DNA of 64,000 bases, taken from the NCBI GenBank assembly GCA_007449985.2, contig VIIQ02000214.1, forward strand, positions 62,001-126,000. Direction: 5' to 3'. The notes beneath the pieces are model-generated. The model worked only from the letters and a program-made list of their open reading frames with translations, was not told the DNA's origin and did no database searches. Source of the DNA: Desmodesmus armatus. Lineage: Eukaryota; Chlorophyta; Chlorophyceae; Sphaeropleales; Scenedesmaceae. The position numbers and the translations under genes are program-made. The stretch's first letter is position 1; the number at the start of each line of letters is the position of its first letter. This document shows, in pieces, positions 14,256 to 64,000 of the stretch.

Positions 14256-17200
14256 GTGGCGACGTGATACTCGTTCGTAGTCGGTATTGGTGGGAGACTG
14301 TGTGGATGATCATGTCGCCACTGGCCGGGATCCCCAGATCAAGTGCCACACACCTTTGCTTGAGTATGTCGTGCGCAATTAGCTGACTTGCCGAGGACAT
14401 GCACACACATGCATAGCAGCAGGAGTGAGAAGGGCTGGCCCCCACCCCCCCAGCAGCGGAGGGCGGAAGCTTGGGCGGAAGCTTGGATTGCTTGTAACAG
14501 GTCTTGTCACCAAGGACAGAGGGCCTGCGGTTTTGTGTTGTTGGGGTGTTGTGAGCAGACAACAAGACAGTAAGAAAAGGGGCACAAGAACAGCAACACA
14601 GGTACTTCACACTGGCAGCACCTGCAACTGTCACTGCAAAACAAGCTGTATGTAACAATCAACCAGCTGGCACAGCACTGCTGCTAGCAAGAGAGCTGTG
14701 TGGCTGACAGTCCCAGGCCAAGAATGGTGCAAGATCTGAGAGAGACAACTGCAACACTGACAATGTAGACAATAGTAATATGTATCAAAGCCTGCACGAT
14801 ACCAACTGCGGTCTGCAAGGCAAAGGCAGAAGATCTGACAGAAGATCGGACAGAAGTGTTGGGCACGGAGAGTCTGAACTGCTTGCTGCTGGACAGGCAG
14901 TCACTGGGCTTGATTAATTGGGAAGCAAAAGAACTGACTACAATTGTGTCAAGGGAACAGCTTGACTGAAGGCAACCTTCGTGAGGCTTGCCTGGCGTGG
15001 ACCGGCACGGTGGCTCAGAACCGCTGATAAGATCAGCACTGACGGTGCAGCTACTGACTGACAATTGCTGACTGGCGGAACAGGCCAGCAGTAAGACAAC
15101 CTTCGGTGAGGTGCCTGCGTGAGACTGGCACGGTAGGCACAGCTCCGCGTAGAATTGCTCTCGGATTGGACGTCAAGAAGCAAGTAAGTAGAACGGTGGG
15201 CTGGTACCACGTTACAGAGACGACAGAAACAGATCAACAGTGACTGCTGCCAGCAGCTACCGCGCACGTGTGTGACAACGGCAGGTATTACCCAACAGAG
15301 AGCATCCACAAACTCCGGCCAGTGCTTGACAGCGCTGGCCGAGCATAAGAACGTGCGGCAATCTCCAACAGAAGACCTAAACCGCAACCTGACGGATAGA
15401 CTGGAGACAGCATTCATGCAGAAACCAACATGAAATATGGTGTGTGACTACATGCAGGCTGTACACAGTTGCACATCACACTGGCTTGCTGCTCCTTCAC
15501 CACAGCTGGTCAAACTGCTCACAGCTGCTACTTGACTGCACCCACAAGTCATGCACACAGGACAAGGCAGCAAGTCATGCAAACATGCTCAGTCACAAGG
15601 TGCTGAGCCACAAATGTTGCTATTTCGGCAGCATGCATGTATTCGGCATGACAGCTGTCGTGCGCAATTAGCTGACTTGCCGAGGACATGCACACACATG
15701 CATAGCAGCAGGAGTGAGAAGGGCTGGCCCCCACCCCCCCCGCGGCGGTGTCATGAAATGCACAAGCCAGACACCAGAACTGATCACGATAGCTGCGCCA
15801 AGTACAGGCATGTGCACATGAGTAGGTATGATGGGCGTGAAGGGACACAAGTGAAGCTGAAGCCGTCTGGGGCATGCAAGACAACATGGTACTGCCACTA
15901 CCACGGCACAAGCATGGCTGTGGGGCAAGAATAAGGCAGAGTGATGCACAGCGTGCAGCACGCTGCACAACGCTCTGAAGAATAAGGAGTGACACAATGC
16001 ACGTGTGCGCTGTCACGACACACAATGCGCTGTGCTGAAGGCATGAATGAAGGAATGCAACCATGATTGGACAACACAACTATGCTGCAACCTCACATAG
16101 CTGTAGGAATGCTTTTTTTTGCTTTTTTTTCCCTTCTCAGTAAGGCACAGCAGAAAGCTGTCACTGCAACAGGCAGTGGACACAACACTGGCACACACTA
16201 ACATCAACAGGCTAGCACTGCGCTGGCAGTGCTTGCAGCCGCCACTGCAACAAGCAGTGTACTCTCTAAGACTTGATCAAAACACCAATACCAAATCCTG
16301 GCAAAAGCCTGCAGTCCACATTGGCATCAGTCACAGCAGTGGCAGTTGACGTACGCTGCTGAGAGAACACTAGCGCGTTACGGGTGGCTGCACTGTTGAA
16401 GATGCACAACCAAAGGCATGCCTGTGGGGCAGTGGCAAGGCCAGGCTGGTTGTAACCCATAATAACCTGCAGGCGGTGCTGCTGCTGAAGCTGCTGCAAC
16501 CAGCGTTGAACATCACGAGGCAAATTGTGAATAACGGCACCATAGAGCTTGACGCAGACGCAGGGGGCACACGCGGCCAGGTGTTGAAGACCAGCCAGGG
16601 AAACTGGGAGGGTGACCGCAGTAACAACCATGTCGCCTGCTGTTGGAGCCAATGCCAGCCGAGGTGCCAGTGAAGAGCGACGCTGGCTGCTGCCATATGT
16701 TGCCGCAGTGTAAGCGCGCTGGGATAGCACCAAGGTAGAAAGCTGGCCAGTAACTTTGCCTCCACAACCAATGGGGTCCACAAGTGTATCAACTTCTTGG
16801 ATATCTGTAATTACGAGGCCATACTTTGCAGGTGAAGAACACCAGGGGCCTGCAGGGAACAGGGCAGACTGTGCGGGCAAAGGGAAGCAAGAGGAGTGTT
16901 GGTGTGCACAGGGAACAGTTGCACTCTCGACAACCAAGCAGACAACAGCTGCATCACACAGGCATCACATGCCGGCTGGCTGATACTACTGCGATGCCTT
17001 GCAATGGCATTGCCGACCCAAACAAGTAAAGCTATACCTGACAACTACTAGAACACTAATTGACTCAAGGCTTGGCCAACTATGGCCCTATTGTTGCTGC
17101 CAACACCTAACAGACAAGGGACTTCAAGAACCATACACACTACAACCAGACACACTGTTTGACCCCCCCAGCCACCAAGCGCAGAAACAGCTCACCCCTC

Positions 17201-20200
17201 CAGTCCCCAGACCTGAACCACGTGGGTGCACCCTTGAGCACATCAGACAGCAACTAAGGTGCAACCAAAGCCCTCAAGGGAAATTCTGCTGGTACGCACC
17301 ATGACGGGCTGGAGGAGGAAACTGAGGTGGTACAGCTGGCGGCACGGAAAGGGCAGCTGTGGGGGGACTATGGTCGACTGTACTGCCCATGGCACCAGTG
17401 GTGGGCCTGACGCTGATTGGCACACCACCAAAGTACCCAGCCACCAATGCTGCATTGTCGGCTGGCACCCTAGACACACATGCATGAGAAACAGCTGAGG
17501 GACACTGCCAAAAAGGGGCAACACCACCCTCACCCTGATAGTCTAGTTGAAGCCCACATGCACTGCCATAAGCACAAATCAACACCTCACTCACACCAGC
17601 AACAGCGCTAGGAGGTGTAGGTGCAGGGTCGACCTCAACCGGCACAGCAACTGGCGATGACGGCTCAGAAGACACAGGTGAAGACTGGGGCGACTCAGAA
17701 TCGCTGGACTCTGGTGCCAACATGCCGTTGAGAACCCTGAAATCAACAGCAAAACGAGCAGCAGGAGGGCTACCCAGCACATCATCGTCAGCAAGGTTGG
17801 GCACACCGGCAGGGAAGCTGGCAAGGGGCGCCTCACCATAAGGGGTGACAGGGGGCACAGCATCTGACACACCAACAGCAGGCACAAGAGTGGGCACGTC
17901 AGCAGGGGGCACATGAACGTCACCATCACTGTCAGTGCCCGACAGAAGCTCAGGCATGCTGTAGTCAGCAGAGCTGCTGTACTCATAAGCAAACGGTGCA
18001 TCAAAGACATCACCATCACCATCACCATCCCCAAACTCTATACCTACAGTAGCAAGACTATGGACAAAGCCAGAAGCACTAAAAGGGGAATCATCATCAA
18101 CTGCACTAACACCAACATCATCACTATGAGGAGGCACACTAGACAACCCCGTCACCACACAAAAATTCATCATGCCATGATGCTGGGCAGAGTGACGAGG
18201 TGGGTAGGCATCACCTGACAACGGCTCAGCAGCAGCAGCATGAGAATGGCCTTGGTCAGCCTGACGCAACTTGGCCAACTGGATCTGGAAGAACCCCTGC
18301 AGATGCTCAGGCACCACTATGTCAGCCAACATCTGCCTATCTCTGCACTTGTGTGGGAAAGCTATCCAGCAACCCTCTGCGTGGTGACCATGCTGGTCGC
18401 ACAAGTTGCACACAGGGGTTGAAGGGCGCGGAGGCGAAGCACGGGAGTTGTAACCCTCCTGACACCCAACACCCAAGGGCCTAGACTGCCCATAGCCGCC
18501 ACCATAGCGTCCGCTGTCACCCTGCCCAGGACGGAAGCCAGAAGCAAAGACAGAGAGCTCAGACTGAAACCTAGACTCTAGATCAGACACTCTATCCACC
18601 ACACAATCCAACTGTTGCCTAACGCGCTGCACTATACCCTCCGACAACCGAGACGCCTCCTCAGCTAAGGTTGTAGCATGCACATGCTTGACCACACCCT
18701 TAGCTTTGTCGACCGCACACGGACACTCCCTAAGTGTGTGCATCATACAGTGCTCAGGGCACAAGGCAGCAGGAAAAGCTTTGGCTAAAAGCTGACACCG
18801 ACCCTCGGCGCTCATGTGCTGAAGCCCAGCACACATGGCAGCCGCCTTGGAATTGATGTCAGTAGCCTGCAGCAAAGAACTAGTGGCAGAGATGGATTGC
18901 TGGCTAGAAAGAGCGACTACAGGTGACACACTAGGTGGCGACAACGGTGCTTGCAGCATACCCCAACCGGCGGCCTGGTGCTGCTGTTTTGCTAGCTCAG
19001 ATACAGCAGAGAGCACAGCAGCAAGCGTAAGCTTAGCGTTCCAGGTTGCAGGTGCCCCAACGGGAGCTTGGGGTAGCTGGGTCAAACCATCAACTACAGA
19101 CTTGATGCGCAATGAGACAGTCTCAGGCAGCAGATCAGACATGCTCAGCAGCTGGACTACAAGCTCACTTTCACTAAGAACACCACTAGGCACAGACCTG
19201 CTGTAGAAACCCTGAAGCTTCAACAACACATGCTGCAGTGGGCGCCACAGAGAGTTGTTATGGTGTGTTTGGCAGACGAGGGACAGTTCTGCCAACAGCG
19301 ACTTGAACTCGGTCACATCAGGACCGCAGAACTCACTCCTGAATAGCTCTAGCACCTGATCATACCTATCTTTAAAATCATCGTACACCCCCTTGTGATC
19401 AGCAGCAGTATTGCATCCTAAGCTTGCAACCTGGATTTCATCTGCCAAGGGCCTAACATGCAGGTCGCACCACAGGTCAAAGGGTGTAGCGCCCTGATCT
19501 GTAGTGCTAGCTGCGCTGCCACCCGAAGCAAAGGTAAAGAGGCTGCGGTACAGCTTCTCATCCGCTGAACCCAGTTTCCCCATGCCCACAACATCAGCAA
19601 AGGCACGCAGGTAGGCAAGACCTGCAGCACCCTTCTCCCTACCTGTGAAATGGGGGAGAGTGGAGCGCTGCATATCGTCCTCACTTTCAGAATCTGGCTG
19701 GTACAAAGAGTTATACACTAAAGGTGGAACACCAGGAGGCACAGGGACGTTGGGCTCGTCCCCAAGCTCGCTAGAAGGCGGTGACGAGGTACCGCCACCT
19801 GGTGGCCCAGGTGGTGGTAGTTCTGCAGCAGCAGCAGGGGCAACAGGAGTGCCCGTGCCACTACCAGAAGCAGGCTTAGCTTTTCCCTTGGCTCTACCCT
19901 ATGACCTGGTTTGCATTTCCTGCCATGAAAGGCACCGTAGTAAGTGGAATCAACCCCCCCAGCAGGTAGTAAACGGTATAACGGACACCAACAGACCACT
20001 GACTAACACACAATTGCACACGAAATGCAGTAGCGTGCTAAGCTGGCCAACAAAGCTCACAAACACACCCGCAGCAGCACGAGCCTGAACGAGACCCTCC
20101 CCAGCCAAATACACTCACTCAACAGTAGGAGTGCGACTGAACCAGGAGGAGACGCCACGTCCAGGCCGGAGTTTGTGGATGGGCGGAAGCTTGGATTGCT

Positions 20201-21469
20201 TGTAACAGGTCTTGTCACCAAGGACAGAGGGCCTGCGGTTTTGTGTTGTTGGGGTGTTGTGAGCAGACAACAAGACAGTAAGAAAAGGGGCACAAGAACA
20301 GCAACACAGGTACTTCACACTGGCAGCACCTGCAACTGTCACTGCAAAACAAGCTGTATGTAACAATCAACCAGCTGGCACAGCACTGCTGCTAGCAAGA
20401 GAGCTGTGTGGCTGACAGTCCCAGGCCAAGAATGGTGCAAGATCTGGGAGAGACAACTGCAACACTGACAATGTAGACAATAGTAATATGTATCAAAGCC
20501 TGCACGATACCAACTGCGGTCTGCAAGGCAAAGGCAGAAGATCTGACAGAAGATCGGACAGAAGTGTTGGGCACGGAGAGTCTGAACTGCTTGCTGCTGG
20601 ACAGGCAGTCACTGGGCTTGATTAATTGGGAAGCAAAAGAACTGACTACAATTGTGTCAAGGGAACAGCTTGACTGAAGGCAACCTTCGTGAGGCTTGCC
20701 TGGCGTGGACCGGCACGGTGGCTCAGAACCGCTGATAAGATCAGCACTGACGGTGCAGCTACTGACTGACAATTGCTGACTGGCGGAACAGGCCAGCAGT
20801 AAGACAACCTTCGGTGAGGTGCCTGCGTGAGACTGGCACGGTAGGCACAGCTCCGCGTAGAATTGCTCTCGGATTGGACGTCAAGAAGCAAGTAAGTAGA
20901 ACGGTGGGCTGGTACCACGTTACAGAGACGACAGAAACAGATCAACAGTGACTGCTGCCAGCAGCTACCGCGCACGTGTGTGACAACGGCAGGTATTACC
21001 CAACAGAGAGCATCCACAAACTCCGGCCAGTGCTTGACAGCGCTGGCCGAGCATAAGAACGTGCGGCAATCTCCAACAGAAGACCTAAACCGCAACCTGA
21101 CGGATAGACTGGAGACAGCATTCATGCAGAAACCAACATGAAATATGGTGTGTGACTACATGCAGGCTGTACACAGTTGCACATCACACTGGCTTGCTGC
21201 TCCTTCACCACAGCTGGTCAAACTGCTCACAGCTGCTACTTGACTGCACCCACAAGTCATGCACACAGGACAAGGCAGCAAGTCATGCAAACATGCTCAG
21301 TCACAAGGTGCTGAGCCACAAATGTTGCTATTTCGGCAGCATGCATGTATTCGGCATGACAAGTAACACAGGGCGCTTGTTTGTGACGGATCAGCTTGGT
21401 GAGCTGTATGTGATATTTGCCGGGTTGCCATCGGTACCTATGCAAGGAACGGTGGCCGCTTACATTCAG
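14256..21469 (+). CDS. Lectin gene exon 2, split by the retroelement
   Basis: The exon begins after TTGCAG (14,255), completing SPSGDVILVRSRYWWETVWM of the bulb-lectin fold. Coding sequence runs to 14,366, is interrupted, and resumes at 21,366 with NTGRLFVTDQLGELYVIF, ending VAAYIQ at 21,469 before GTGGGG. With the element and one AGTA copy removed the exon is 215 bases in one frame. In the present allele the frame runs into the element and stops at 14,384-14,386, predicting a 253-residue truncated secreted product. Confidence 0.75.
14367..14471 (-). repeat. Repeat B2 (element terminus)
   Basis: The 85 bases at 14,367-14,451 are identical to 15,656-15,740 (B1). They contain CATGCACACACATGCATAGC and end in a C-rich run. 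The remaining 20 bases contain a tandem 12-mer (GGGCGGAAGCTT) at the border with A2. Confidence 0.85.
14472..15653 (-). repeat. Repeat A2 (1,182 bp)
   Basis: Direct repeat of 20,180-21,361, starting TGGGCGG and ending CATGACA on the + strand. Internally it carries two related sub-units (CAACCTTCGTGAGG... near 14,979 and CAACCTTCGGTGAGG... near 15,098). Open frames inside it (for example 14,938-15,417 minus) are identical in both copies simply because the repeats are recent. I do not call them genes. Confidence 0.85.
15656..15740 (-). repeat. Repeat B1 (internal)
   Basis: Identical to the outer 85 bases of the element at B2. It is separated from A2 by only GC, creating the palindrome GACAGCTGTC at 15,650-15,659. 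Confidence 0.85.
16266..16937 (-). CDS. Second open frame of the retroelement, unknown
   Basis: A 223-codon frame downstream of gag in element sense. Segments such as YGLVITDIQEVDTLVDPIGC and KLYGAVIHNLPRDVQRWLQQ look protein-like rather than repetitive. No reverse transcriptase, protease or recombinase motif is recognisable. It may be an exon, a gag-related C-terminal piece or a pseudogene. No similarity claim is made. Confidence 0.3.
   Translation of the reverse strand: MVVESATVPCAHQHSSCFPLPAQSALFPAGPWCSSPAKYGLVITDIQEVDTLVDPIGCGGKVTGQLSTLVLSQRAYTAATYGSSQRRSSLAPRLALAPTAGDMVVTAVTLPVSLAGLQHLAACAPCVCVKLYGAVIHNLPRDVQRWLQQLQQQHRLQVIMGYNQPGLATAPQACLWLCIFNSAATRNALVFSQQRTSTATAVTDANVDCRLLPGFGIGVLIKS
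17274..19673 (-). CDS. Gag-like protein with CCHC zinc knuckle
   Basis: From the first ATG (19,671-19,673) there are 799 residues. The frame stays open upstream to 19,898 without another ATG (Pro/Gly/Ala-rich), so translation may start in an upstream exon. The N-terminal half is helical and capsid-like, with an FTGREKG..YLRAFADVV start typical of Retrotrans_gag domains. A CX2CX4HX4C zinc knuckle (CNLCDQHGHHAEGC, encoded around 18,373-18,416) should bind RNA, as in retroelement nucleocapsids. The C-terminal 350 residues are acidic and Pro/Ser/Val-rich without a protease motif. It packages element RNA in the cytoplasm (family knowledge). Confidence 0.7.
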   Translation of the reverse strand: MQRSTLPHFTGREKGAAGLAYLRAFADVVGMGKLGSADEKLYRSLFTFASGGSAASTTDQGATPFDLWCDLHVRPLADEIQVASLGCNTAADHKGVYDDFKDRYDQVLELFRSEFCGPDVTEFKSLLAELSLVCQTHHNNSLWRPLQHVLLKLQGFYSRSVPSGVLSESELVVQLLSMSDLLPETVSLRIKSVVDGLTQLPQAPVGAPATWNAKLTLAAVLSAVSELAKQQHQAAGWGMLQAPLSPPSVSPVVALSSQQSISATSSLLQATDINSKAAAMCAGLQHMSAEGRCQLLAKAFPAALCPEHCMMHTLRECPCAVDKAKGVVKHVHATTLAEEASRLSEGIVQRVRQQLDCVVDRVSDLESRFQSELSVFASGFRPGQGDSGRYGGGYGQSRPLGVGCQEGYNSRASPPRPSTPVCNLCDQHGHHAEGCWIAFPHKCRDRQMLADIVVPEHLQGFFQIQLAKLRQADQGHSHAAAAEPLSGDAYPPRHSAQHHGMMNFCVVTGLSSVPPHSDDVGVSAVDDDSPFSASGFVHSLATVGIEFGDGDGDGDVFDAPFAYEYSSSADYSMPELLSGTDSDGDVHVPPADVPTLVPAVGVSDAVPPVTPYGEAPLASFPAGVPNLADDDVLGSPPAARFAVDFRVLNGMLAPESSDSESPQSSPVSSEPSSPVAVPVEVDPAPTPPSAVAGVSEVLICAYGSACGLQLDYQGEGGVAPFWQCPSAVSHACVSRVPADNAALVAGYFGGVPISVRPTTGAMGSTVDHSPPTAALSVPPAVPPQFPPPARHGAYQQNFP
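20180..21361 (-). repeat. Repeat A1 (1,182 bp)
   Basis: Partner of 14,472-15,653; same length, offset 5,708. In element sense this is the 5' terminus, beginning TGTCATGCCG at 21,361, and would hold the promoter. The adjacent interior (20,179 leftwards) shows no obvious tRNA-primer site, again unlike a standard LTR element. Confidence 0.85.
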
Positions 21470-27599: not shown

Positions 27600-27676
27600 G
27601 GGGCCAGACTTTCTCACTCCCGCTTCTTTGCATGTGTGTGCATGTTTGCGGCAAGTCAGCCAATTGTGCCCGATAA
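27600..27676 (+). repeat. Diverged inverted relic of retroelement repeat B
   Basis: The reverse complement of this intronic segment matches B1/B2 at roughly 80% (CAATT.GCTGACTTGCCG, CATGCACACACATGCA, GGGAGTGAGAA). It suggests an older insertion of the same element family in this gene, now reduced to its terminus. Confidence 0.6.
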
Positions 27677-54920: not shown

Positions 54921-55028
54921 CTTGTGCATATGAGGTGTTGCGTGGCAGTCCGGCTCGTAGTTTTGCTCTGAAGTGATTCAGGGCATAAGTACGAGTCGGA
55001 CTGCCACGCAACACCTCATATGCACAAG
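54921..55028. ncRNA. Near-perfect 52-bp intronic hairpin, candidate miRNA precursor
   Basis: 54,921-54,972 pairs with 54,977-55,028: 48 of 52 positions are exact, plus two G-T wobbles and two mismatches, around a GTGA loop. The outer 32 bases (starting CTTGTGCATATGAGGTGTTG) pair perfectly. It sits in the intron between exons 6 and 7 of the golgin-like gene. The length and mismatch pattern fit a Dicer-processed precursor. A short foldback transposon is the alternative. Confidence 0.6.
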
Positions 55029-55150
55029 AGAATTGCCAGGTTCATACGGCTTCCTTGGAGCCATCACCTAAACGAGGTCCCCACACTTCTTGCGAATGCC
55101 AACCACCCATCTCTGTCATCTGCTGGGCATGGTTGTCACTTTGCGAAAAG

Positions 55151-55310
55151 GAGCAGCTACTGCGAGAGCAGCTCAAGCAGCAAGTGCTGCCGCCTGACAC
55201 CCTACCCCCGCCAGCCTCGGGTGCTGCCCTTGCCACCGAGATGCTAGCCCAGAAGCAAATGCTCCAGGGGAAAACCGCAGCCCTCACTCATGCGCAGGAC
55301 TTGCAGGACA
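55151..55310 (+). repeat. Echo of exon 7 (160 bp), still open
   Basis: EQLLREQLKQQVLPPDTLPP and ALATEMLAQKQMLQGKTAAL match the start of the exon at 55,388 (EQVLREQLEQQAVPSSPLPT, ALAAEMLALKHMLQEKNAVL). The frame is undamaged and is preceded by AAAAG. It could be an alternative exon, but the donor is unclear. Confidence 0.65.
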
Positions 55311-55387
55311 TTCACACGTGCATGCTTGCGCATGCCATCCACTCCAACCATATTCCCTGTGTTGCTGCTTTGATTACTTGCTCTCAG

Positions 55388-56275
55388 GAGCAGGTACTGC
55401 GCGAGCAGCTTGAGCAGCAGGCGGTGCCGTCTAGTCCTCTACCCACAGCAGCCTCCAATGCTGCCCTTGCCGCTGAGATGCTCGCCCTGAAGCACATGCT
55501 CCAGGAAAAGAATGCAGTACTCGCGCAGGCCCAGGACTCTCTGCTGCTGCTGGAGCAGCAGGTGGACCAGCTGGCGGCGGCTGCCACTGCTGCCGGCGCA
55601 GGGCAGCAGCAGCAGCAGCAGCAGCGGGATGAGGCGGCGGCTGCGGCGCACCAGCAGCTGGAGCAGCTGCAGCAGGTGCTGCGGCAGCAGTCCACGGCGG
55701 CTGAGGACGACCTCGCAGCAGCAGCAGCAGCAGCAGCAGCAGCGGCTGCTGAGGCAGACGCACTGTCTGCCGAGGCTGTCCCAACAACAGAGGCCGGTAG
55801 CACTGTTGAGCTGGGGCAGCAGCTTCAAGCAGCACGGGAGGAAGCCGCGGCAGCAGTGGCAGCAGCGGCGGCTACAGCTGCCGAAAAGCTTGCTGCAGCA
55901 CAGAGCAGGATTGCTGAGTTGGAGGGCGAGTTGCAGCAGCTGCAGCAGCAGTCGCCGGCAGCAGCAGCTGCTCCAGCAGCCGCCACAGCAGCAGCAGCAG
56001 CAGCAGCGCCTCCACCCGAAGCAGAGGACGGATGGGGTGGCTGGGAGGACGATCTCTCTGCCGCACCCCAGCGGCAGGTGCTGCTCGGGGAGCAGGACGG
56101 CAGCAGTGCCGACGCAGCGGCGGCTGCGGCGGCTGCAGCAGCGGCAGCGGTGGCGGCGGCTGAGGCGCGGTCCACTGCTGCTGAGCAGGAGTGTGAGCGC
56201 CTGAGGGTGGAGGTGGAGCAGCTGCAGGCGGAGCTGAGGGATGCACAGCAGTCGATTGGGGATCTTGAGGCACAG
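55388..56275 (+). CDS. Golgin-like gene exon 7
   Basis: 296 codons, phase 0/0, acceptor CTCTCAG, donor GTGTGT. Ala/Gln/Glu coiled coil (LLLLEQQVDQLAAAATAAGA, RSTAAEQECERLRVEVEQLQ) with one AEDGWGGWEDDLSA motif (about 56,024-56,065), first of the WGGW series. CAG/GCA runs encode the Gln/Ala tracts. Confidence 0.7.
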
Positions 56276-56549
56276 GTGTGTGGGGGTGGTGGAGGTATAG
56301 ACATTTACTGCTGGCTTGACTCAGTTTCCAAGTGCTCCTGCAGGTTTGCTGTTGACTCTCACGTCTTGGTGTTACTGATGGGCCTGCATCTGCCATGAAG
56401 CAGGACCAGTGCGCAGGCACAGCAGCTGTAGCGTGCTGCTGTGCATTGCACCACTTGTGCCCTCACTTGAAGCCACATGCATACCCACACCTCTCACTCG
56501 CTGCCTGTCTGCTTGACCCCCGTCCTGTCCCGCTGCATGTACATTCCAG

Positions 56550-56801
56550 CTTGCGGCAGCTGCCGCTGAGGCGTCAGACAAGCAAGACCAGCTCAGTGCC
56601 CTGGCTCAGCAGATGGCTGACGACGCAGCGAGGCTGGCAGCAGCCGAGGCCGCCATGGCAGAGCTGCAGCAGCAGCTGCAGCAGGAGTCTGTTGCTGCTG
56701 CTGCTGCTGTGCATGTGAGCGCTGGTGGCGATGCTGGTGGTGGAGGTGTTGATGATGAGTTGGTGGCGGAGCTAGAGGACAGGCTGTTGGAGGCTGAGCA
56801 G
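56550..56801 (+). CDS. Golgin-like gene exon 8
   Basis: 84 codons, phase 0/0: LAAAAAEASDKQDQLSALAQ to VDDELVAELEDRLLEAEQ. Coiled coil with a Gly-rich hinge. Acceptor ATTCCAG, donor GTGAGA. Confidence 0.7.
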
Positions 56802-57028
56802 GTGAGAGGGGGAGGTCGTGGAAGGTCTAGCCCACCCGCCCTGCTTAATCATTTACTTGCTGAATTTTGGGACCCCAGCTTGTCCGCCACCCTGCTCTTT
56901 GCACATACACACATCCAGGTTTTTGTGTGTCTCCCGCACAGTGTGTTTACACTCCTCTCCCCCCTCCCCCAAAAGACCCCCCCACCCCCAAAAAACTCTT
57001 CCCTCCCCCCCCCCCCCCTCTCTCACAG

Positions 57029-57105
57029 GCCCGTGAGTCAGCTGAGTCGCCCTTGCGTCCAGCCAGAAGCACTACCAGGCAGAGCTGGCAGCAGCAACAC
57101 ACTTC
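57029..57105 (+). repeat. Echo of exon 9 start, frameshifted
   Basis: CTCACAG|GCCCGTGAGTCAGCTGAGTC... copies the acceptor and about 70 bases of the exon at 57,236 but has lost one base, so it cannot be used in phase. Confidence 0.75.
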
Positions 57106-57235
57106 ATGAACGCCATCCATCACCTGACCAATTGGGCCATAGTGTCTGTCGCTCTGCCCTTGCACAAAAACACACACGCTGTTCCTTGTGCTTCCCACAC
57201 ACATCCCCCCCCCCCACACACACACACACCCACAG

Positions 57236-57574
57236 GCTCGTGAGTCAGCTGAGTCTGCTCTTGCGTCCAGCCAGAAGCGTTACCAGGCAGAGCTGGCGGC
57301 AGCATCACACCGCGCACAGGAGGCAGAGGCCGCCCTGGCAGCACTGCAGCAGCAGCAGCAGCAGCAGCACTCTGCCCAGCTTCTTGGCAGCCCCCGCAGC
57401 CCCACAGTCACTTCAGCAGCAGCAGCAGTGGATGGTGCAGGCAGCCCCCTCAGCGCCCAGGGTACCCCTGACGGCGATGCTGCTGCTGTTGCGGCTAAGA
57501 TGCGGGCCGTGGCGAAAAAGCAGAAGGAGAAGATCGCTGCACAGAAGGAGGAGATTGCGGCACTCAGCCGACAG
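57236..57574 (+). CDS. Golgin-like gene exon 9
   Basis: 113 codons, phase 0/0: ARESAESALASSQKRYQAEL ... KMRAVAKKQKEKIAAQKEEI then AALSRQ. Acceptor CCCACAG, donor GTGGGC. Confidence 0.7.
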
Positions 57575-57654
57575 GTGGGCTGGTCAGCATCGGGGGGCGG
57601 GCGGCGGGCGGGCGGGGGGGGGGGGGGGGGGTGCACCACACCAGTGTCCTTGCC

Positions 57655-57865
57655 TGTTTCACAAGGACAGTCACAGAACGTCTCTGTGTCACAGATTGCT
57701 GCACAGAAGGAGGAGTTTTTGTCACTCGGCCGACAGGTGCGCATGGTCAGCAGCTGGGGTACATGCAAACTGCAGAAACTCCTCACAATGACAGTGAAAC
57801 TGTTGTGAAACTTCTCACAAGGACAGTGAAACTCTTGTGCAACTCTTCACAAGGACAGTTGACAC
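57655..57865. repeat. CACAAGGACAGT tandem units
   Basis: Units of the form TCACAAGGACAGTGAAACTCTTGTG recur with about 32-35-base spacing at 57,785-57,865, plus an outlier at 57,660 just before the micro-exon. Confidence 0.6.
57695..57736 (+). CDS. Putative 14-codon micro-exon, copy of exon 9 end
   Basis: IAAQKEEFLSLGRQ lies between TGTCACAG and GTGCGC in phase 0/0, and repeats IAAQKEEIAALSRQ at the end of exon 9. It could be spliced as an optional exon adding one half-turn repeat to the coiled coil, or be a non-functional echo. Confidence 0.4.
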
Positions 57866-58172
57866 ATGACTAGTGACAGCGTACAGCTGGTGCTCGAGTG
57901 TAAGGGGAGATGGATGAGTGCAGGGCAATGCCAGGGGTGTTGGACAACTGCTGCCAGGACGAGAGGCAGAGCATGGTAGTGGTGGAAGTGTCGCAGTGAG
58001 GTAAGCTTGTCGGGTAGTCACTGCTGCACCGATCAGTTTCTGGAGGAAGTCCCCCCGGGGGACTGGAGGCTCCAGCGGCTGCTGCATTTCCCCTGTTATG
58101 GAAAGAGCTAACCTGTGTTTGCTCTGACGGTGCCTTGCACCTGCGTGCGATGTGTGATGTCCTCCCTTCCAG

Positions 58173-58813
58173 CTGGAAGAGGCCCAGGCACAGTTGGCGG
58201 CAGCAACGGCAGCAGCAGAAGATAGCGCTGCTGCTGCGGCTACTGCTGCTGCCCTGGCATCTGCCGCATCTGTCGCCGACAGCTTCCCGCAGCAGCACGA
58301 GCAGCAGCAGCGTCCAGATGTCGAGGACGACCGCGAGCAGCTCAAGCAGCGCATTGCCGAGCTCGAGTCTGAGCTCATCGATATCCGCAAGCTGTGGTCC
58401 GAGCAGTCCGACTGGCAGGAGTTTGCTGAACGAGCAGCAAACGAGAAAGCAGCACTCGAGGAAAAGACAGCAACCCTCCAGCAGCAGCTTGCACAAACCG
58501 AGGCGCAGCTGACAGATTACTACGGACGTGACGTAATCGCGCAGCTCGAGGCCGATCTGGAAGCCGAGCGGGAGGCTCGCGCTGATTCCGACCGGATGCT
58601 TGTCGAGATGCAGGACAAACTTATGGCCCTGTTCCCGCAGCTGGAGGCCGATGCAGCAGCGATTGCAGCTCGGAGCCCCAGCCCTGAACAGAAGAGCGAC
58701 AGTCCGGAACCTGCTGAGCGCAGCGAGTCGGTGTTGGACCACCTGTCGGAGTGGATCGCGCGTATTTCGGCGCTGCATGACGCGGAGCTTCAGGGACTTC
58801 GGGAGCTGCACAG
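58173..58813 (+). CDS. Golgin-like gene exon 10
   Basis: 641 bases, phase 0 in, phase 2 out. LEEAQAQLAAATAAAEDSAA then the most ordinary coiled coil of the gene (REQLKQRIAELESELIDIRK, QLEADLEAEREARADSDRML), with SPSPEQKSDSPEP (phosphosite-like) and WIARISALHDAELQGLRELH. Low Gln-repeat content suggests this is the conserved core. Donor GTGGGC. Confidence 0.7.
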
Positions 58814-58956
58814 GTGGGCTTTGCATGGGGTCGATGGAACTGAACCAGGCGTGTTGTGCTGCTGCTCTCTTTGCCTTTTTATGGACCACCCTTCCCAGGG
58901 ACATCTGAAGCTCTTGCCCTGCTCTGATCTCATTGGGATGGGCACACCCTCTTATA

Positions 58957-59018
58957 GCATTGAGCTGGAAGCCCTGCAACAGCAGGTGGCCCACCTGCAG
59001 CTGAAGTCTCTGGTTTGA
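58957..59018 (+). CDS. Putative alternative terminal exon
   Basis: After TTATAG, SIELEALQQQVAHLQLKSLV and TGA. The phase-2 acceptor is identical in use to that of the exon at 59,257 (SIELESFQQQETQLQQQ). If chosen it ends the protein after about 1,270 residues; if skipped the long form continues. It may equally be a decayed echo. Confidence 0.4.
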
Positions 59019-59256
59019 TTGCATCTCAGCTGCTGGTCTTTGGGTGCCGCTACTTGCTGCCCGCCCTCCCCTGCCCCCCAATATCCCCCCCCCCCCCCAA
59101 TCATATTCCCTCTTGGGCCATGTCATCCGGCAGTAATACTGTGGTTAGTAAACATCACTGCACTGCGACATTGCCAATTCCATTGCTTTGGGGTCACCCA
59201 AACTCATCTGTCCGTGTCCTGCACTTGCCCTTGTCACCTGTGCCTGTGCAACATAG

Positions 59257-61054
59257 CATCGAGCTGGAATCCTTCCAGCAGCAAGAGACCCAGCTGCAGC
59301 AGCAGCTGGAGCTACTGCAACAGCAGCTCCACACCCAGCAGCAGCAGCAGCAGCAGGAGGAGCCTCCTGCCTTTGCAGCTCTCGGCAGTGATGCACCAGA
59401 GTCAGCGACAGCAGGTGTTGGGGCGGAGGCTGCTGCTGCTGCTGGTGGTGGTTTGTCTGCGCAGAACAGTGAGTGGGGCGGCTGGTCAGCAGATGAGGAG
59501 CTTCTGGCAGCAGGTGACAACCTGGCCTCGCCCTCTGCTGCAGCAGCAGCAGCAGCAGACGTGGTGTCACCCACAGCAGCAGCAGGGGCAGCACCTGACG
59601 TTCCTGCGCAGGAGCAGCAGCAGCTGCTGCAGCTACAGGCCGAGTTGGAAAGAGTGTCTCGGGAGCTCGCACATGCCACCACATGCCTGGAGGCGGCACA
59701 TTCTGATGCCGCTGCTGCAGCCGCCGCGGAGACGCACATGCAGCAGCAGCTGGCCGAGGCGGAGGGGCAGCTGGGCAGGGCGCAGGCTGAGGTGCAGCAC
59801 CTCACACAGCAGCTGCAGCAGCACGCCAACATGCAGCTGTTGCAGCAGGAGCCATCGCTGTCGGAGCAGCAGCAGCAGGGGGTGGGGTCAGAGCTGCTGG
59901 GCGTCTGCCAGCAGCAGCAGGGGGAGGATGGTGATGGGGAGGGTGGCGCTGTGTGGGGTGGGTGGGAGGCCGATGAACTTGATGCTACCAGCGCGGGCCT
60001 GGAGGCATCCCCAGTGCGACAGCAGCAGCAGCAGCAGCAGCAGCGGGAGGCAGTTATGGAGGCGCTGATCGCCCAGCTCCGTAGTGAGCTGGCGGCTGCT
60101 GCTGCCGCAGCCGGTGAGGCGGGCAGCACTGCTGCTGAGCTGCAGCGGAGCCAGGAGCAGCTGGATGTGACACAGCAGCAGCTGGAGGCAGCACGGGGTG
60201 AGGTGCAGCAGCTGCAGCAGCAGCTGGAGGCCTCACAGCAGCAGCTGCAGCAGCAGGCGCAGCAGCTAGAAGTGGCACAGCAGCAGCTGCAGCAGCAGCA
60301 AGAGCAGTCGATTGCTGCTGAGTTGCAGCAGCAGCTGGCAGCAGCTGAGGGCCAGGTGGTGCAGTTGCAGCAGCAGCTAGAGGCGGCCCAAGCTGAGGTG
60401 CTGCAGCTACAGCAGCAGCAGCAGCAACGCGCTGGTACCGCTGCTGTGGCAGCCACGGAGGCTGATGCTGCTGCCATGCCGGCAGACGCAGCAACTGATG
60501 CTGCTGTTGATGAGGACGGGTGGGGTGCAGGTTGGGAGGGTGTCGACGAGCCCCTTGTGCTTGGAAGCCCCCAGGCCGCTGCACCAGATGCAGCACCAGC
60601 AGCAGATACTGCCGCTGCTGCTGCTACTGCCGGAGATGGTGTGATTGATGGCTCCCAAGAACAGCAGCAGGAGCTGGGCGACGCAGCAGCAGCAGCAGCA
60701 GCAGCAGTGCCTGATGATGCAGCGTGGGGAGGGTGGGGTGACACAGAAGTGACACTGCCGACCCCCATGGAGCTTACCTCGCAGCAGCAGCAGCAGCAGG
60801 AGCTTGTCCCAGCTGCTGAACTGGCGGAAGCGCAGGCGGCAGTAGCAGCACTGACCGAGCAGCTTGCAGACGCTCAGGCAGCACTGGCAGCAGCGCAGGC
60901 GGACTCAGCAGCGGCGTTTGCTGCTGCTGCTGCTGCTGGGAGTGAAGCAGCAGATGCTACAGCTGCTGCGTCATCGCTGTGTGCTGGTGCATCCGTGGTG
61001 GAGGATCTGTCTGCGCAGCTTGCTGCTGAGCAGTCGGCACATGCTGCACTGCAG
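59257..61054 (+). CDS. Golgin-like gene exon 11
   Basis: 1,798 bases, phase 2 in, phase 0 out; 599 codons. Gln-rich coiled coil with four WGGW-type acidic motifs: SEWGGWSADEELLA (about 59,468), AVWGGWEADELDA (59,949), DEDGWGAGWEGVDEPL (60,511) and AAWGGWGDTEVTL (60,718). Ends DLSAQLAAEQSAHAALQ. Donor GTAAGG. Long Ser/Cys frames on the opposite strand are shadows of the CAG runs. Confidence 0.75.
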
Positions 61055-61192
61055 GTAAGGGACCGGGGGGGGGGGGGCACTAGTACTGTGTTGCTGCTCA
61101 CTTGTTCATCTTGCACCACAACACATCAAGCTTTCATAACAGAGTCGACTGTACACATCAATATTGTATATACGAGCTGACTGGCCAGCCAG

Positions 61193-61216
61193 CAGTCGGC
61201 ACATGCTGCACTCCAG
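61193..61216 (+). repeat. Echo of exon 11 end (8 codons), splice-flanked
   Basis: QSAHAALQ lies between CCAG and GTGGGG in phase 0/0, copying the last eight codons of exon 11 (61,031-61,054) with one base change. Confidence 0.55.
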
Positions 61217-61510
61217 GTGGGGGAGGTAAGGAAAGGCGGGTGCTCATCATTGCTGCTGTGTCTGTTGGTTGTGCCCCAGGAACTCTCTGGCTGGCGTCCT
61301 CGTCAGGGTGTCAGCCCTCTCACTGTCCTCCCTTACTTATGCCTCCTCATGTACACCCCCCCCCCTGGCCCCACAGTCCAAGTCACTGCACCCTTGCCTG
61401 CAACATCATTGCCACTGCACCCTTGCCTACAACATCATTGACCTCACCCCTGCTCCCCCCCCCCCCACACACACACACAAACACCACCACACACCTATAC
61501 ACACCCGCAG

Positions 61511-62637
61511 TCGAAGTTTGATGCTGCCAAGGAGAAGTTCAGGCAGCTCAAGGCAGCACTGGCTGACAGCAAGGCAACCGTGGCGGACCTGCAGCAGCAG
61601 CAACAGCAGCAGCAGGGTGAGGGTGGTGACCACACCACCTCTTTGCAGCAGCAGCTGGCTGAGCTGTCGGCCGCCAAGGCAGCACTGGAACAGCAGCTGC
61701 AGGAGGCAAGATGGGAGCAGCAGCAGGTGGGCGTGGGTGCGAATCCAGCCGCTGCCGATGCTGCTGCTGCTGAGGCTGCCCTCAAGGAAGCCTTGCAGGA
61801 CCTGCAGCAGCAGCTCGCAAAACGGGAGCAGCAGCTGTCCGACCAGCAGCAGCAGCAGCAGGAGGAGTCTGATCAGCAGCAGCAGCTGGAGGTTGAGTGT
61901 GGTATGCTGCGGTCGCAGCTGGCAGCCCGGGATAGCGAGGTGTCAACCCTGACGATCCAACTGCAGAGCATTCGGGAGGAGATGGCTGACCTTCGAGAGG
62001 TTCTGTCAGAGATGGGGCAGCTCGAGAGCGACAAGCAGCAGCTGCAGCAGCAGCTTGCCGAGCAGCAGCAGCATGCGGAGCAGCTGCAGCAGCTTCTGCA
62101 GCAGCTGCAGCAGCAGGTGGAGCAGCATCAGCAGGCTGCCGAGGCAGCGGCGGCAGCAGCAGCAGCAGAGACACAGGAGCTGCAGCAGCAGCTGGCCGAC
62201 CTCGCTGCTGCGAAGCAGCAGCTTATGGAAGCAGCGGCAGCAGCCGAAGCCCAGAGCCAGGAGCTACAGCGGCAGCTGGAGGAGTCAACAGCAGCAGCAG
62301 CAGCGGTGGCGGCTGACTCGCAGAGCCAAGTGCTGCAGCAGCAGCTCGAGGCGACACAGCTGCAGTTGGAGGCTAAGGAATCCGAGCTGTCAGATCTCAA
62401 GGAGGTGCTGTCAGATATGAAGGAGAGCCTGGCAGATATTTCAGCAGCAGAGGACCTCAGGGCGCAGCTAGCAGCAGCACAGCAGGAGGTAGCAGCACTG
62501 GCTGAACAGCTGGCGGCTGGACAGGCAGCACAGCAGGAGACAGCGACGGCTGCTACTGCTGCTCAGGAGGCAGCAGCAGCACTGACGGAGCAGCTTGCAG
62601 ACGTGCAGGCAGCACTGGCAGCAGCGCAGGCGGAAGC

Positions 62638-62670
<33 letters not shown>

Positions 62671-62813
62671 ACAGGAGGCAGCAGCGGCGGCTGCTACCCC
62701 GGAGGAGGTCCTACAGGAGCTACAGCAGCAGCTAGCAGCACGGGAGGCGCTCATCCAGCAGCTGCAGCAGCAGCAGCAGGAGGAAGTGGCGATGACAGAA
62801 CGCGAGGGTGGTC

Positions 62814-62873
<60 letters not shown>

Positions 62874-63405
62874 GTGTGGCCTCGCCTACTTCCCCCATCA
62901 CTCTCATGCAGCATGGTCCGTTCGATGCTGCTCCTGCTCACGCTGGTGACATCGGCAAAGGCAGCGGCGCAGCAGCAGCAGCAGCAACAGCTGGTGAGGT
63001 TGGCGACATTGGCAGCGGGGGTGGTTGGGGAGGCTGGGGTGATGATGATGTGGAGGAGTTGCTGCCGGAGCTGCCAGCATTGCCCCAGCAGCAGCAGCAG
63101 CAGCAGCAGCAGGGTGAGGAGGGCACTCAACAGGTGTCTGCTGCTGCCAGCAGTGGCGGCGGCTGGGGAGGCTGGGGGCAGGAGGAGCCTCTTGGTGACC
63201 TCACCCAGCCGGCTGAGACTGCACCAGCTACAGCACAGCAGCTGGAGCCGTCATCATCAGCAGCAGCAGCAGTAGGGGGTGAGGTCGATGTACTGGCCCT
63301 GCAGGCGCAGGCATCTGCTGCTGCAGCTGAAGTGCAGCAGCACCTGGCCACCATTGCGGAGCTGCAGGCGCAGCTGCAGCAGCTGCAGGCAGCATTGGCT
63401 GAATC

Positions 63406-63439
<34 letters not shown>

Positions 63440-63697
63440 GTTCAGCAGGAGCAGGGGTGGGACAATGCTGGGTTTGCCGGCTTTGATGTGGCAACTCCTC
63501 AGAGCCAGGCCCCAGAGGAGGCCTCAATTGACCCAGCAGCAGCGGCGGCGGCGGCTCCCGCTTCTGCTGCTGATGCATCAGTGGGTGACGTTGCTGCTCT
63601 CCAGGCGGCTCTCCAGGCGGAGTTGGTTTCGCTGCAGCAGCAGCTGGGTGAGGCGCATGCTGCTGTGGCTGCAAGGGAAGAAGAGCTGGCCTCACAG
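61511..63697 (+). CDS. Golgin-like gene exon 12
   Basis: 729 codons, phase 0/0. SKFDAAKEKFRQLKAALADS then long Gln/Glu/Leu coiled coil with embedded LSDLKEVLSDMKESLADIS, poly-Ala from (GCT)n at 62,641-62,673 and 62,818-62,870, and WGGW motifs GGGWGGWGDDDVEELL (about 63,016), GGGWGGWGQEEPLGDL (63,157) and QGWDNAGFAGFDVA (63,453). Acceptor CCGCAG, donor GTGCGT. Confidence 0.75.
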
Positions 63698-63921
63698 GTG
63701 CGTGCATGGTTTTTGAGTCACGGCTGTTTGCGTTGTTGCACTGTGCTCAAGTCCCTGTGCTGTGCAGCAGTGGCAAGGGGCAATACAGGGAGGAGTTGGT
63801 CACACGCTGGAGCACGCATCAAGAGGCAGGGCAGGCATGTTTGGTGGGCCCCTTCACTGACACAGTTTTGTGCCATGCACTGTCTACTTATCTTGTGCCA
63901 TGCCCTCCCCTTCCTTCACAG

Positions 63922-64000
63922 GCCGAGGACATGCAGCTCCTCATGGCCAGGCTGCCAGGAGCTTTCACATACGTTATGCTATGGGCCTGTTTGGTAGTTT
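63922..64000 (+). CDS. Golgin-like gene exon 13, cut by window end
   Basis: After TTCACAG: AEDMQLLMARL and onward in phase 0. The true 3' end of the gene, and any C-terminal GRIP or GRAB Golgi-targeting domain, lies outside the window. Confidence 0.5.

Follow-up and report, generated by a model that had tools for sequence, protein, structure and literature searches.

The 64,000-nt stretch of the Desmodesmus armatus genome analyzed here (contig VIIQ02000214.1, positions 62,001 to 126,000; the window) contains a retroelement with split direct repeats. The element spans positions 14367-21361 of the window on the minus strand, and its parts are ordered A1-gag-B1-A2-B2 in gag orientation. Our interpretation, held with moderate confidence, is that it belongs, as a non-autonomous and gag-only element, to a protease-bearing, Ty3/gypsy-like lineage and that it was integrated from a circle with two long terminal repeats (LTRs), opened at an internal palindrome by a DDE integrase acting in trans. 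The evidence consists of the repeats and their order, the copies and their forms, the palindrome, the AGTA sequences flanking both ends, the gag frame, a retropepsin-like domain in gag relatives and a reverse transcriptase (RT)-like remnant in a diverged relative on contig C104. From these we infer the ends of the RNA, the circle, the enzyme and its action in trans.

The window is part of contig C210 of the genome that was searched (115.8 Mb in 831 contigs, to which all C-numbers refer). In this genome, 49 exon-wise matches to chlorophyll a/b-binding proteins mark the host as photosynthetic, and its size and spliced genes point to a eukaryote, probably a green alga. The genome was searched at the DNA and protein levels; 40 of 71 candidates were scored in the DNA search, so copy counts are lower bounds. 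Copy forms were read from 20 genomic stretches (L-numbers), and the copies read for layout were those in the window and on C52, C18, C245, C97, C311, C104 and C85.

Repeat structure of the element

Both repeat pairs of the A1-gag-B1-A2-B2 arrangement described by the first-pass annotation were found, together with their edges. The A repeats (A1, 20180-21361; A2, 14472-15653) are 1182 nt each and have one difference, and the B repeats (B1, 15656-15740; B2, 14367-14451) are identical over 85 nt. This length and identity is far beyond chance. The window copy is young because A1 and A2 differ at one base and B1 and B2 at none. A2 starts with TGTCATGCC and ends in CCGCCCA, and each B repeat has a TG..CA core (15656-15733 in B1 and 14367-14444 in B2). 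At the inner junction of B1 and A2 lies a GC dinucleotide (15654-15655), the center of the palindrome-like sequence CACGACA-gc-TGTCATG. All of these features are on the minus strand. An Rfam scan of 7.3 kb gave no match at E up to 1, and RNA folding of three B units (z of +1.6, -0.9 and +1.8) gave no sign of a conserved fold.

The sequence around B1 suggests which LTR reverse transcription would have made. A G-tract (15734-15741, minus strand) overlaps the 85-nt B repeat ahead of TGGGGG, and the relatives on C104 and C85 have a G-tract in the same place. Where the joint could be read, in three families, B1 opens with TGGGG(G) directly after the G run, and the stretch upstream of the run, TTGTGCATTkCATGACACCGCC, is conserved. 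The A repeat ends in CA, and in C104 and C85 A2 meets B2 as a clean CCA/TGGGG. Polypurine tracts, TG..CA LTR edges and two-LTR joints typically look like such sequences. The G-tract is accordingly read as a putative polypurine tract priming the plus strand. The A2/B2 joint (14445-14471, minus strand), which consists of a leftover G-tract within the 85-nt B repeat and 20 extra nucleotides, is in our reading a candidate LTR-LTR joint. Because B1 begins with TG right after the G-tract and A ends in CA, the LTR is probably B-gc-A. With this LTR, opening a two-LTR circle within one of its LTRs would give A1-int-B1-A2-B2 (int, internal part), opening a one-LTR circle at the same place would give A-int-B, and A-B would be the piece left over.

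Coding content

The gag frame (17274-19898, minus strand) has 874 codons from stop to stop, with the first methionine at codon 76. It contains the CCHC motif reported by the first-pass annotation, C-X2-C-X4-H-X4-C, which we take to be a gag zinc knuckle; its C, C, H and C are invariant, which confirms the assignment. A second open frame of 232 codons (16266-16964, minus strand) is interrupted by a one-base gap in C52 and by a stop codon in C18 and C97. It is also less conserved relative to C18 (84%) than the adjoining non-coding stretch (89%). For these reasons it is not counted as a working gene, and it probably is not one; the earlier description of the element as gag-only thus holds. The changes relative to C18 fall on codon positions 1, 2 and 3 as 33, 22 and 51, a skew that could be a trace of past coding.

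Pfam searches with gag, the second frame and two frames of A2 gave nothing at E up to 1, including no protease and no tyrosine recombinase (YR). Gag relatives have a retropepsin-like domain, with Pfam scores below the cut-off. The diverged copy on C104 carries an RT-like tail, which we presume to be RT-thumb-like although Pfam names no RT there. Of 36 other genomic matches of this tail, 24 lie upstream of a DDE integrase domain (rve) and none lies near a YR.

A third protein search (query A3) returned P0009, which was already in the query alignment, and P0010. Phage records searched with the window gag and plasmid records searched with the relative P0004 gave no match, and among viral contigs none of 44 and none of 18 pattern matches encoded a relative. 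The predicted fold of P0004 had a mean predicted local distance difference test score (pLDDT) of 46, too poor for use, and Foldseek with the gag model gave no match at E≤0.001. Comparison of solved structures with the protease-like profile gave one chance match (E 0.15), and comparison with P0001 gave two unrelated chains (E 0.7-1).

Copies and diverged relatives

The assembly contains a second long copy as well as partial and diverged copies, as the first-pass annotation had thought worth searching for. The second long copy, A1-gag-B1-A2, lies on C52 inside a 147-bp satellite; the last part of A2 and all of B2 are missing, and A1 and A2 have one difference in 1171 positions. The copy on C18 consists of A1-int-B1 only and that on C245 of A-B only. 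C97 has B and a truncated internal part, and C311 a 207-nt piece of A. The several copies and derived forms bear out the mobility that had been proposed, and a mobile, gag-only element depends on enzymes from elsewhere.

Two relatives are strongly diverged. In C104, whose gag is 47% identical, B1 and B2 match perfectly over 73 nt at a distance of 1129 nt, and the 9.9 kb read yielded no A1. In C85 the two B repeats agree throughout 71 nt at a distance of 4750 nt, and the 5.2 kb read upstream of B1 likewise yielded no A1. The arrangement int-B1-gc-A2-B2 is common to the C104, C85 and window families, each with its own, strongly differing sequences. A pattern for the inner joint (TTGCGCACGACAGCTGTCATGCCG) matched six genomic places with up to three mismatches, C339:30977 and C214:133116 among them; the reversed control matched none. 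The second long copy, the diverged families and the recurring inner joint indicate that the layout is inherited and not an artefact. Plain identical LTRs or an assembly chimera at 14,451-15,740, which the first-pass annotation had named as grounds for discarding the layout, were not seen in the copies read; both readings are rejected on the evidence of the second long copy and of the two diverged families.

The A2 of C85 exceeds that of the window element by about 3.5 kb, and the edges of the extra part are rich in CCCCTTCAC; it is probably a nested insertion. The C104 relative has a (CCCTAAA)-type, telomere-like repeat directly at its broken 5' end (L028:3417-3443). After this repeat comes a 21-nt piece that recurs within the relative's own gag frame.

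Element ends and target sites

The window copy has TGTCATGCC (A1) and GCACGACA (B2) as its outer ends. AGTA stands on both sides (14363-14366 and 21362-21365; flanks CTTGAGTA / AGTAACAC), which is TACT in gag orientation and a putative 4-bp target-site duplication. Neither outer end carries the GC dinucleotide that links these two end sequences at the inner junction. GC is also missing from the A end of C52 and C311, and it is present at the B end of C104 and C85. At C52 the other satellite units serve as the empty site; no duplication was seen there, and the B end is lost in a 3-nt overlap, which makes this copy not decisive. In C18 and C245, GC is present at the A end and absent from the B end, and the first 2 nt of their flanks are shared.

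Different ends would be expected from the two kinds of enzyme. A tyrosine recombinase with a 2-nt spacer would leave GC at exactly one end, as in C18 and C245 but not in the window copy. A DDE integrase that removes GC from both strands would leave no GC and a short duplication, which fits the window copy. C18 and C245 would be compatible with an integrase only if gap repair kept the GC.

B also occurs without A, as units of about 70-76 nt dispersed over the genome with unlike flanks. Among the matches listed, 31 of 42 were B alone, outside the named copies, and at the 14 of these 31 places that were read, no other part of the element was found besides B. With a degenerate pattern for the B end, 55 matches were obtained in the genome (control, 0). 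Fifteen solo units were read with their flanks (L030-L043 and L053), namely the 14 and one at C117. They end in GCACGACA in 12 cases and in a one-base variant in three (L031, L039 and L042), with GC present or absent after this end; the other end is at or near the G-tract. The two flanks of a unit were more alike than flanks taken from different units. Matches of at least 4 nt between the flanks of the same unit, required to start at the 3' edge but free in position within the final 16 nt on the 5' side, occurred in 7 of 15 units vs. 1.8 expected, and in 6 of 15 vs. 1.7 in a second analysis (P of 0.0005-0.001 over the two analyses). The excess was gone when the 3' flank was shifted; P was 0.02-0.04 with the 5' flank shifted and 0.06-0.12 with both shifted. 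The flank matches are moderate evidence for target duplication. The solo units are very short for a mobile unit. A diverged one, with eroded ends and 53 bits with the B profile, lies in the window itself (27602-27673, plus strand).

Proposed integration route and alternative explanations

In the route that we propose, the RNA, in gag orientation, would have its start in A1 and its stop in A2. With the plus strand primed at the G-tract ahead of B1, reverse transcription would give a linear DNA with the LTR TG-[B]-gc-[A]-CA, and closure of this DNA would give a two-LTR circle with a CA/TG joint. A DDE integrase supplied in trans would cut the circle at CACGACA-gc-TGTCATG inside one LTR, dropping the GC, and the opened circle would be inserted with a 4-bp target duplication, giving A1-int-B1-A2-B2. 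Several points weigh against this route. The main uncertainty is the enzyme, which itself was not seen, and no complete pol of this family was seen among the sequences read. The GC retained at the A end of C18 and C245 is not what the route predicts, the solo B flank matches are moderate evidence, and the derived forms could alternatively come from later recombination between repeats. Two variants were ruled out: insertion of the circle by homologous recombination into a resident solo B, since B is absent from the A1 end of the window copy, and origin of A-B by splicing of the internal part, since no GT..AG was found by eye at the A/int and int/B edges.

It is possible, though we think it less probable, that the element is a true split-direct-repeat YR retroelement (PAT/TOC/Ngaro-like) that lost RT and YR and was moved by an autonomous YR partner, its circle recombining at the B^A junction without target duplication. 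The layout is the one given for such elements in PMC8969392 and PMC4157794, and the GC at exactly one end of C18 and C245 and the lack of a visible duplication at C52 agree with it. The genome also contains a YR element with split repeats of its own. That element has an 81-nt B repeat. Both an A repeat and the B1-A2 block were found in five copies (C2, C36 twice, C142 and C552), and in these the former lies 5.5-5.6 kb upstream of the latter. The eight YR matches in the genome are at loci without meaningful similarity to the window element; the loci read share nothing with it beyond a 28-nt match (E 0.013). The AGTA flanks and the missing GC at both ends of the window copy, together with the solo B flank matches, also argue against a YR origin, as do the retropepsin-like domain of the gag relatives and the C104 remnant, whose matches mostly precede rve. 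Elements of the DIRS order are not known to have an aspartic protease. In PMC8969392, DIRS elements are described as lacking target-site duplications. The membership in the PAT/Ngaro/Kangaroo/TOC1 group proposed by the first-pass annotation is therefore unsupported.

Among the YR copies read, L045-L051 and C2:478172-485421 are nearly identical and have the YR frame between the start of A2 and B2. In the copies on C711 and C712 the match starts with A2, and the stretch read lacks everything that precedes A2 in the other copies; the two have the same left flank and are perhaps one duplicated place.

Rearrangement of an ordinary LTR retrotransposon, with B1 or B2 gained or lost by recombination between copies and a layout without mechanistic meaning, is improbable. 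The forms A-int-B (C18) and A-B (C245) can be derived by recombination between B copies or between A copies, but the A1-gag-B1-A2 copy on C52 and the occurrence of int-B1-gc-A2-B2 in three strongly differing families largely refute this explanation, and none of the eight copies read shows plain LTRs at both ends, whether as [B-A]-int-[B-A] or [A-B]-int-[A-B]. Least probable is a Penelope-like element or long interspersed nuclear element (LINE), in which partial tandem copies and ends truncated during target-primed reverse transcription mimic split repeats. The variable flank matches and the short solo copies with one constant end are of the kind that such an element would leave, but the palindrome that marks the constant outer ends occurs inside the element too. 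The zinc-knuckle gag, the retropepsin-like domain of the relatives and the A and B pairs, which are near-identical as in LTRs, also speak against it.

Comparison with known retroelements

With Ty3/gypsy LTR retrotransposons the element shares the zinc knuckle of gag, the retropepsin-like domain of its relatives, the RT-like remnant, a polypurine-like tract and TG..CA LTR edges. The chromosomal ends of Ty3/gypsy elements are at the LTR edges, whereas those of the window element are inside the LTR, at the palindrome. Identical LTRs at both chromosomal ends were not found; A stands alone at one end, and A-B preceded by B stands at the other. Chlamydomonas TOC1 is a non-autonomous, algal split-repeat element that is filed with the YR elements, and the likeness noted is one of description.

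PAT, TOC, Kangaroo, Ngaro and VIPER are listed as split-repeat elements in PMC4157794, and the DIRS elements with split repeats have the order A1-internal-B1-A2-B2 in PMC8969392. The window element has the same repeat order and presumably shares a circular intermediate with its insertion point at the B^A junction. It differs in its gag relatives with a retropepsin-like domain, an RT-like remnant of a kind that mostly precedes a DDE integrase in this genome, a putative 4-bp duplication and no YR seen in the element. Gag-only elements as a kind are already known from the TR-GAG elements of plants (PMC8704663). These are alike in having a single gag frame and depending on other proteins in trans, but they have two plain LTRs where the window element has split repeats.

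The proposed cut has parallels in retroviruses. The integrase of human immunodeficiency virus type 1 (HIV-1) cuts the palindromic two-LTR joint in vitro (PMC1905944), and for spumavirus it was proposed that one cut at the palindrome yields the two processed ends and removes the nucleotides that separate the conserved CA (PMC1180852). In these cases, as in the window element, the palindrome has a CA-nn-TG center. However, the retroviral palindrome is the LTR-LTR joint and is not kept in the integrated provirus (PMC1180852; PMC1905944), whereas that of the window element is a fixed part of it. Our literature searches found no paper joining split direct repeats, Chlamydomonas and non-autonomous elements and none treating TOC1, Chlamydomonas, DIRS and retrotransposons together. 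Two papers, PMC8969392 and PMC6696364, mention split direct repeats along with gypsy, aspartic protease and LTR retrotransposons; no wider claim about what is unpublished is made.

Elsewhere in the window, positions 54989-63997 contain several long frames with a high content of glutamine, alanine and glutamate; they are probably exons that encode a coiled-coil protein of the host.

Split direct repeats are usually taken as the mark of YR retrotransposons. We tentatively suggest, with less confidence than for the origin of the window copy, that a Ty3/gypsy-like lineage regularly integrates from a two-LTR circle that a DDE enzyme cuts at a palindrome fixed inside the LTR, thereby acquiring split repeats without a tyrosine recombinase. 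The copies would then be fossils of integrated circles and the solo B units short by-products. Should an integrase-bearing lineage arrive at this arrangement too, the layout by itself would no longer diagnose the recombinase, and some transposable element annotations would need review. If true, the family would also offer a natural system for the old question of whether a retroelement integrase uses the circle joint as a real integration substrate.
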